DNA of 40,420 nucleotides. Source: Hyphomicrobiales bacterium (GTDB lineage: Bacteria > Pseudomonadota > Alphaproteobacteria > Rhizobiales > Beijerinckiaceae). The notes beneath the pieces were generated by a model, which was not told where the DNA came from, searched no databases, and saw only the letters and a program-made list of their open reading frames with translations. A program made the translations under genes and the position numbers. Shown here in pieces: positions 7,621 to 8,738 of this stretch (positions are counted from its first letter, which is position 1; each line of letters opens with the position of its first letter). The stretch covers positions 1-40,420 of the forward strand of contig JAQGJX010000012.1 of the NCBI GenBank assembly GCA_028290405.1, in the 5' to 3' direction.

Positions 7621-7662
7621 GGGTTTGCCTCAAAGGCAGCCGCGCAGGGAAGAGGCCAAGGG

Positions 7663-7690
7663 GCGAATAGCGAGTGGCGAATAGCGAATA
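7663..7690 (+). repeat. Left array of four 7-bp repeats (GCGAATA type)
   Basis: Four direct 7-bp units, three of them identical and one with two changes, lie just upstream of nuoD. They are the inverted counterpart of the array at 8115-8135. Confidence 0.85.
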
Positions 7691-7713
7691 GAGAGAGGGT
7701 GTGAGCCATGAAC

Positions 7714-8091
7714 CTAACCCTCCGATTTCCGCTGGAGCGAACGAATCAGCGAGCGAAGCATCCTGCCGAGCGCGTCGCATTTTTGCATCATGGGCATAGA
7801 GCCCCCGACGGGCATGAGGCGCACGCGCTCGGACAACAGGAGGCGAGTCTCAAGCTCCTTCAGCGAACCCTGCGCATGCCGAAGAAACTGAACGAAAGAG
7901 CCCGTGCTCTCTCGTCCATGTCCTTCCGCGATGTTGGCCGCCACCGAAGCGGCCGAGCGGCGAATTTGCGACGTCATTCCGTACATCTCTTCCTTCAGGA
8001 AAACACGGGTCACACTGCAGGCTTCCTCAGCAAGCTCCATCGCGTCCCGCCAGACTCTCAGATCGCGATATGAGTTGAAGGTTTCCGTCAC
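7714..8091 (-). CDS. Four-helix-bundle protein, 23S rRNA intervening-sequence (IVP/S23) family
   Basis: From a GTG at 8091 the protein has 125 residues, in the size range of the family. Family hallmarks are visible: FNSYRDLRVWRDAMELAEE at the N-terminus, EEMYGMTSQIRRSAASVAAN in the middle, NIAEGHGR, and the C-terminal long helices with SLKELETRLLLSERV. These proteins form pentameric four-helix bundles related to the Avd accessory proteins of diversity-generating retroelements and are often found in rRNA intervening sequences; their own role is unclear. Here the gene lies inside a protein operon, on the operon strand, and is flanked by inverted heptad arrays. No reverse transcriptase or variable repeat is nearby. 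The start is uncertain because the frame is open further upstream into the repeat. Confidence 0.88.
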   Translation of the reverse strand: MTETFNSYRDLRVWRDAMELAEEACSVTRVFLKEEMYGMTSQIRRSAASVAANIAEGHGRESTGSFVQFLRHAQGSLKELETRLLLSERVRLMPVGGSMPMMQKCDALGRMLRSLIRSLQRKSEG

Positions 8092-8114
8092 AGAAGCCGA
8101 GCTCCCAACCTTTC

Positions 8115-8135
8115 CATTCGCTATTCGCTCTTCGC
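8115..8135 (-). repeat. Right array of three 7-bp repeats, inverted relative to the left array
   Basis: Three tandem heptads on the minus strand match the left array at 7663-7690. They contribute the final codons and the TAG stop of nuoC. Confidence 0.85.
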
Positions 8136-8738
8136 CCCCTGCGCCTTTTCGTCGCCCGGCAGCGCGTAGGGGGTGTCGCCCTCCCACGGCGACAGGAAAT
8201 CGAACTGGCGGAATTCCTGGGTCAGGCGCACGGGTTCGTTCACCACGCGCTTCTGGGCGTCGTCGTAGCGCACCTCCACGAAGCCCGTCATGGGGAAGTC
8301 CTTGCGCAGCGGATGCCCCTCGAACCCGTAGTCGGTGAGGATGCGGCGCAGGTCCGGATGGCCCGAGAACGGCACGCCGAACAGGTCCCACACTTCGCGC
8401 TCGAACCAGTTGGCGCACGGGAAGGCCGGGATCGCGGAGGCGAGCGCCTCGTCCTCGGCCACGGCGGTCTTGATGCGGATGCGGCGGTTATGGCGGGGCG
8501 ACAGCAGGTGATAGACCACGTCGAAGCGCTTCTCGCGCGTGGGATAGTCAACGGCCGTCAGGTCGATGAACGAGATGAACAGGCAATCGGGCGCATCGCG
8601 CAGGTAGGTCAGCGTCTCGACGATGGCGGCGGCGTCGACGCACAGGTTCAACTCGCCGTATTCGACATACGCGCGCGGCGCAGCGCCGGGCAGCGCGGCG
8701 GCGATGGCGTCGCCAAGAGCCTTGAGTTCATCGTCCAT
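8121..8738 (-). CDS. nuoC: NADH-quinone oxidoreductase subunit C (30-kDa type)
   Basis: NuoC is a peripheral-arm scaffold subunit that contacts NuoD and NuoI. The start [12 protein letters not shown] at 8738 gives 205 residues, normal for alphaproteobacteria; an open frame extends upstream but overlaps nuoB and is not conserved. Motifs include [18 protein letters not shown] [19 protein letters not shown] and [19 protein letters not shown], the signature of the family. The C-terminus ends [12 protein letters not shown], whose last codons and stop come from the heptad array of the inserted island, so the native tail may have been replaced. Confidence 0.96.

Follow-up and report, generated by a model that had tools for sequence, protein, structure and literature searches.

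The feature between nuoC and nuoD in the window (the whole 40,420-base stretch of DNA analysed here) is probably one copy of a widespread mobile element, in which a single S23 gene lies between inverted, element-specific arrays of a unit that is usually 7 bp long. Our verdict, reached by sequence comparison, is that it is a transposase-less S23 element of the kind represented by the intervening sequences (IVSs) of rRNA. The sequences document the architecture of such elements and its generality, the matching of the two arms, empty and filled sites, replacement of the unit, purifying selection on the gene and gene-less relatives of the arms. Mobility is indicated indirectly, by clean empty sites, by scattered presence at one junction and by replacement between nearly unchanged flanks.

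In the window, the S23 gene occupies positions 7714 to 8091 of the minus strand and has 125 codons; its start and frame were read from the sequence. It matches the four-helix-bundle family PF05635 (23S_rRNA_IVP) with 107.9 bits against a curated cut-off of 33.8, and is thus a member of that family. Its coding start is most likely the GTG at 8091, with a Shine-Dalgarno-like GGGAG (8102 to 8106, minus strand) ten bases upstream. The host genes lie on the same strand, nuoC upstream (8121 to 8738; Complex1_30kDa, 155.2 bits) and nuoD downstream (6427 to 7620; Complex1_49kDa, 400.8 bits). On the coding strand the 5' arm (8115 to 8135, minus strand) reads GCGAAGA GCGAATA GCGAATG, which on the forward strand appears as CATTCGC at 8115, TATTCGC at 8122 and TCTTCGC at 8129. 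The 3' arm is inverted with respect to it and occupies 7663 to 7690 of the plus strand, with GCGAATA at 7663, GCGAGTG at 7670 and GCGAATA at both 7677 and 7684. TRF identified both arms as period-7 arrays. The nuoC reading frame ends at 8121, and the stop codon (TAG, 8121 to 8123, minus strand) therefore falls inside the right-hand array. The first-pass annotation had described an S23-type gene here, with four GCGAATA-type heptads to one side of it and three in inverted orientation to the other, and had placed the nuoC stop codon in one array; profile search and coordinates bear out each of these points. When GCGAATAGCGAATA, a GCGAATA dimer, was searched for with up to two mismatches, all five matches in the window fell within the two arms, where 0.16 were expected by chance and none of 100 shuffles reached five; in the whole genome the exact dimer of this type occurs at two places only. 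Between the arms, PF05635 is the sole recognised gene, and the ORF list and profile search gave no transposase of the classical IS or MITE kind. Two other tandem repeats reported by TRF, at 40276 to 40337 (24-bp units) and 14490 to 14515 (13-bp units), are unrelated. By eye, the window's protein is without two prolines that are common to at least 90% of 35 aligned relatives, having FLKEE for FPK.E and SVAAN for SIPSN; given these missing prolines, it is perhaps an ageing copy.

Inverted arms are a general mark of PF05635 genes. A first look at relatives met the family in 7 of 61 genomes, and at four of those seven loci GCGAATA-type heptads point inward on both sides. The wider sample combined a draw over the phylum, with a PF05635 match in 62 of 398 genomes, and the best 80 loci from a scan of public genomes; 2 of 80 and 9 of 163 loci were dropped for short flanks or odd ORF length, leaving 78 and 154. 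A further 12 loci with a core identical to another's were removed (167 loci, 155 S23 cores). Arms were counted as inverted at a score of at least 12, the 154-element run using a slightly laxer mismatch penalty than the 78-locus run. By this measure, 107 of the 154 genes, drawn from many phyla, have inverted arms, compared with 27 of 918 pairs whose left and right arms were mismatched and 9 of 585 pseudo-elements placed at shifted positions in those loci; at the threshold, none were found for the other 47. The 78 named loci alone give 49, against 1 of 379 mismatched pairs, and their mean best period-7 scores are 14.6 on the left and 14.3 on the right, compared with 9.6 in 418 control windows. 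Among periods 3 to 15 in these 78 loci, besides 7 itself, only its double, 14, clearly exceeds the control, and 8 does so weakly. Across the 154 elements, period 7 reaches the threshold in either flank of 96 (control 24 of 585), and period 8 in 18 (control 1 of 585); no other period between 4 and 12 does so in more than five. After 7 and its double, period 8 thus shows the strongest enrichment around S23 genes, and some arrays at L251, L174, L180 and L184 are indeed built of an 8-bp unit, such as GGGCAGTA.

The same architecture occurs in rRNA. Locus L202, found through its protein, lies within a bacterial LSU rRNA gene (Rfam RF02541, 2499 bits), on the same strand, and has inverted heptad arms. 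The flanks of L203, which comes from that genome too, are the same (Rfam was run on L202 alone). Because of L202, the classical 23S rRNA IVS and the units in operons look like one kind of element. That genome (G291) contains four S23 matches (L091, L198, L202 and L203), two with rRNA-type flanks and two elsewhere, and the heptads at the copy before a ruvC-like gene differ from those of the 23S rRNA copies. In Xanthomonas codiaei (L273), S23 lies between accB-like and accC-like genes and has GGGAATC-type arms. The neighbour names ruvC, accB/accC and carA/carB were assigned by eye from translated DNA and nuoC/nuoD by search, while plasmid loci were annotated. In another genome (L176, G447), S23 with heptad arms stands before nuoC and after a gene that by eye is nuoB-like, and the nuoC-nuoD gap contains a different short gene and, after it, a heptad hairpin without a gene, making two insertions in one operon. 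On two cyanobacterial plasmids (L216 and L220), S23 is found between cas6 and cas4, flanked by long heptad arrays (AAAAGCT/AAAAGCC at L220); because of these arrays, S23 in cas loci may be an insertion rather than part of CRISPR function. The archaeal occurrence is a single archaeal MAG (L124).

The heptad differs from element to element, examples being GCGAATA, GGCAGTA, GTGAGTA, GGGAATC, GGGACCG, TTAGTGG and AAAAGCT, and is matched within each one. Clear period-7 arrays flank the gene on either side in 65 of the 154 elements, and in 47 of these 65 one arm's consensus heptad departs from the other's at no more than one position; among mismatched pairs the share is 3.8%. The inward-pointing strand is G-rich (50 against 7).

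Clean empty sites are seen at a second junction, acd-mmsB, in the genus of G128 (g34), which is not that of the window. The sample, made up of the best 30 of 61 g34 genomes and two added loci, is tilted toward filled sites, because the query included part of an array. Among these 32 loci, 17 carry S23 with GGCAGTA arms, 12 are clean and empty (gap 23 to 28 bp), two hold gene-less heptad or octad hairpins and one has another insert. Presence of S23 is scattered on the tree of the flanking genes, requiring 10 changes, at least six of them forced by starred branches, compared with a shuffled mean of 10.9. At L248 a different short palindromic insert occupies the same junction, which suggests that small elements of several kinds can settle there.

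The S23 protein is under purifying selection, with dN/dS between 0.03 and 0.14 in 15 of 17 pairs, the other two being saturated. Its profile matches PDB entries 2gsc (E 3.5e-37) and 2rld (E 9.2e-13), each deposited with five chains; to our knowledge, no catalytic activity has been described for it. With the window's protein as sole query at E 1e-5, a search that would miss distant relatives, no relative was found among 50,697 phage records; of 72,556 plasmid records, 25 matched, at least 19 of them from cyanobacterial genera. Y1_Tnp (PF01797) occurs in 7 of 61 g34 genomes. Among the 12 g34 genomes that keep at least 20 array hits once the arms of the acd-mmsB unit are subtracted, 7 are without a PF00078 reverse transcriptase, 11 without Y1_Tnp and 7 without both. 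A present requirement for either enzyme is thus ruled out for these 7 of the 12, loss after spread being possible. Because the unit has no second recognised gene and these 7 genomes have neither enzyme, we infer that S23 itself drives movement of the unit. The protein would bind the G-rich arms, or a hairpin or cruciform formed by them, and recognition would be of the hairpin or the G-rich strand rather than of a fixed word. S23 and host replication or repair functions would together copy the unit precisely into intercistronic junctions, and gene-less heptad hairpins would be non-autonomous dependents of the element. In its broadest form, which we put forward tentatively, S23 elements may constitute an unrecognised class of transposase-less mobile element across bacteria, and perhaps archaea. 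One small four-helix-bundle protein would recognise heptad hairpins of freely changing sequence by their structure and G-rich strand, would copy the unit with precision into rRNA loops as well as intercistronic junctions, and would have spread the heptad repeats of Xanthomonas and Nostoc.

That the arms are private to the gene is ruled out by the many heptad pairs without S23. GCGAATA dimers occur in 8 of 61 relatives and in none with a reversed-pattern control. By eye, 8 of 15 gene-less GCGAATA places have an inverted partner, and several adjoin core genes (rpsP, groES-groEL, rplC and rpoA-rplQ). Of the 61 g34 genomes, 45 contain GGCAGTA trimers; the control gives 0. When 20 gene-less GGCAGTA arrays were chosen among the long perfect ones, a non-random sample, 16 had an inverted partner across a loop of 14 to 51 bp and none had an S23 gene. 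The first-pass annotation had foreseen that heptads scattered without a link to this gene family would count against it; the link to PF05635 holds, while the heptad pairs prove to be numerous without the gene as well. Counts of g34 arrays are of overlapping trimer hits, not separate arrays, and their relation to S23 was computed after removing the acd-mmsB unit's own arms, with S23 arms at further sites kept and kinship uncorrected. On that footing, array hits rise with S23 copies (Spearman 0.29, p = 0.025, kinship ignored), and their median is 9.5 in the 18 genomes with a filled acd-mmsB site compared with 4.0 in the 43 others (p = 0.035, kinship ignored); for S23 present versus absent, p is 0.23 (kinship again ignored). 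The statistical link between S23 and the dispersed arrays is therefore weak.

These counts speak for a different reading, which we consider unlikely though worth weighing: that the hairpins are the real mobile entity, STRR- or MITE-like and dependent on an unknown host factor or on template switching in replication, with S23 a passenger or stabiliser. Besides the weakness of the link once the acd-mmsB unit's own arms are removed, some genomes have more long GGCAGTA arrays than S23 copies (G498 has two S23 matches and, apart from these, arrays at about nine places), and PF05635 is found in 48 of 61 g34 genomes, with arrays in 8 of the 13 that are without it. Against it, PF05635 is tied to inverted arms in many phyla and with unrelated heptads, where a chance passenger would vary, and the gene is under strong purifying selection.

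A further explanation works at the level of RNA alone. The arms would be kept as a stem cut by RNase III, and the unit would spread by horizontal transfer and homologous recombination in its flanks. The arms do close one stem in the predicted nuo transcript, with S23 in the loop (7655 to 8142, minus strand; MFE -223.4 kcal/mol, z -5.13, 0 of 100 shuffles). A true 23S IVS (L202) has the same arms, RNase III excision has been published for one IVS (PMC4990558), and S23 is co-directional with both neighbours at 104 of 150 loci (longest-ORF rule, no control set). Among the mismatches between arms, G-U (68) is not in excess over A-C (78; p = 0.46), so there is no sign of selection on pairing in RNA. 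The match is therefore likely kept at the DNA level, by recent copying or by arm-to-arm correction. Among gene-less pairs with an ORF on both sides, moreover, 7 of 15 lie between convergent or divergent ORFs (longest-ORF rule), which also speaks against a role confined to transcripts. As for recombination, some S23 pairs at acd-mmsB are far more alike than their flanks (synonymous difference, pS, 0.12 vs 0.41), and over all 136 pairs the synonymous differences of S23 and flanks have a correlation of 0.40. Of the six most extreme pairs, one (L241-L244) shows flank identity rising toward the unit, as recombination would give; in the other five, likeness in the 60 bp beside the unit does not exceed that of more distant DNA. 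For this reason precise movement of the unit is favoured, although flank recombination may account for some cases. We regard the RNA-level explanation as improbable. Under the mobile-element reading, the transcript would still matter for tolerance by host operons: the first heptads can supply the upstream gene's stop codon, the downstream ribosome-binding site would be retained, and the arms would form a transcript stem that RNase III could cut, as published for an rRNA form. Such tolerance would also fit the co-direction of S23 with both neighbours noted above. By eye, the arrays at the nuoC-nuoD and acd-mmsB junctions are able to supply stops, and ribosome-binding sites are kept. Left-arm heptads give stops in all three frames in 39 of 65 elements, compared with 47% for shuffled heptads and 29% for the other strand, a weak effect.

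The window's own junction can be compared among relatives, as the first-pass annotation had proposed. In the window's genus nuoC was found in 43 of 51 genomes, and 30 nuoC-nuoD junctions were read. Most of these are free of the gene: 23 are empty, with gaps of 2 to 47 bp, and one has 85 bp lacking clear heptads by eye. Two more, the window's nearest relatives by nuoC, hold 100 to 115 gene-less bp in which there is a remnant of period 7 (a score as high came from 7 of 2000 shuffles in one case and 0 of 2000 in the other). The remaining four carry S23, one of them (L061) with GGCAGTA instead of GCGAATA on both sides. Over several families, S23 is found at nuoC-nuoD at 14 loci; 13 of these copies fall nearly together in the S23 tree (2 changes vs a shuffled mean of 12.7), with a copy from another site (L201) nested inside the group. 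L061 was left out of one tree for lack of columns. Within one genus code, L003 and L086 have flanking DNA that is 93 to 94% identical and S23 genes that are 58% identical; pS is 0.25 for nuoC, 0.22 for nuoD and 0.85 for S23, the heptads differ, and the likeness breaks at the nuoC stop and resumes at the nuoD start. At this site, then, one unit has taken the place of another while the flanks stayed nearly the same. An AU test does not reject L003 and L086 as an S23 clade (p = 0.18), the tree having few columns, and the case for exchange at this site therefore rests on the synonymous divergence. By eye, no target-site duplication was made out when empty and filled junctions were compared at nuoC-nuoD and acd-mmsB. 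The earlier suggestion that a small transposase-less unit of gene and arrays entered this operon thus gains support from the junctions, from the link to arms across phyla and from unit replacement.

It is highly improbable that S23 is instead a long-standing member of the operon, passed on vertically with frequent losses, with heptads that are slippage products of the junction sequence: the near-single clade of nuoC-nuoD copies and the pairs L001-L005 and L073-L076, whose S23 pS is close to that of nuoC and nuoD and which look vertical, are in its favour, as is the divergence of the window and L005 units, about in step with nuoC/nuoD, but inverted arms to either side of a gene are not a product of slippage, the same architecture recurs at unrelated sites and in rRNA, presence at acd-mmsB is scattered, and the inverted arms together with the L003/L086 replacement already largely refute it.

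The closest known counterpart is the 23S rRNA IVS, which shares with the window's unit a PF05635 protein and terminal inverted repeats that form a stem, the L202 IVS also having inverted heptads. The two differ in that the window's unit lies between the protein genes nuoC and nuoD rather than in rRNA and has a plausible Shine-Dalgarno sequence. IVSs are described as suspected mobile elements, and in the Coxiella IVS GACAGAT heptamers precede the ORF in numbers that vary among strains, a 28-bp terminal stem is cut by RNase III, and the ORF is reported to be decaying and probably not expressed (PMC4990558). The operon copies of S23 tested here are, in contrast, under purifying selection.

Cyanobacterial STRRs are heptad simple repeats, and the window's arms resemble them, and heptad SSRs generally, in being tandem 7-bp units between genes. 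As to dispersal, arrays are many in g34, and the window's genome has the exact dimer only at the two places noted above. For Xanthomonas (GGGAATC) and Nostoc (GGGGA(C/T)T), PMC4692102 describes heptad repeats whose origin it leaves open, with 70 cases of convergent inverted pairs in Xcc; its Discussion leaves the functional role open and cites polymerase slippage for heptamers, and its main text contains the term "four helix" zero times. These SSRs are like S23 arms in their period of 7, G-rich strand, intergenic location and convergent inverted pairs.

Avd of diversity-generating retroelements (DGRs) has been described as resembling PF05635 (PMC10053308). Unlike a DGR with Avd, the window's unit is one S23 coding sequence without reverse transcriptase, template or variable repeat, and PF00078 is absent from 7 of the 12 array-rich g34 genomes. 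MITEs and REP/RAYT systems likewise have short dispersed palindromes beside a rarer gene-bearing form. The S23 unit differs from them in having no transposase and in an arm sequence that varies from element to element, and from REP/RAYT also in that Y1_Tnp, confined to the 7 g34 genomes noted above, is lacking in 11 of the 12 array-rich ones. Finally, 23S_rRNA_IVP genes in cas loci have been taken as having a CRISPR-Cas-associated function (PMC3936711). The position of S23 between cas6 and cas4 at L216 and L220 is like those loci, whereas the heptad arms there suggest an inserted element.

PF05635 itself, met so far mainly in insertions within rRNA genes, IVSs as suspected mobile elements, heptamers in one IVS, the GGGAATC and GGGGA(C/T)T repeats and S23 in cas loci were thus already known. 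Among open-licence papers, a scope that leaves preprints outside, we found none that links S23 genes in protein operons to inverted heptad arms. As far as this literature shows, four points are new: that inverted heptad arms generally mark S23 genes, that S23 has spread through protein operons, that the unit can be replaced at the same site, and that S23 genes are linked to dispersed hairpins with the heptad of their own arms, the GGGAATC-type arms in a Xanthomonas among them.

If the mobile-element reading is true, it would offer one explanation for the purpose of S23, for the abundance of heptamers between genes and for the presence of S23 in rRNA, cas loci and core operons. It would also provide a test case of a unit that moves without a recognised recombinase and whose arms stay matched despite changing sequence. 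Related species present both junctions, nuoC-nuoD and acd-mmsB, in filled, empty and gene-less form, which opens the question to direct testing.
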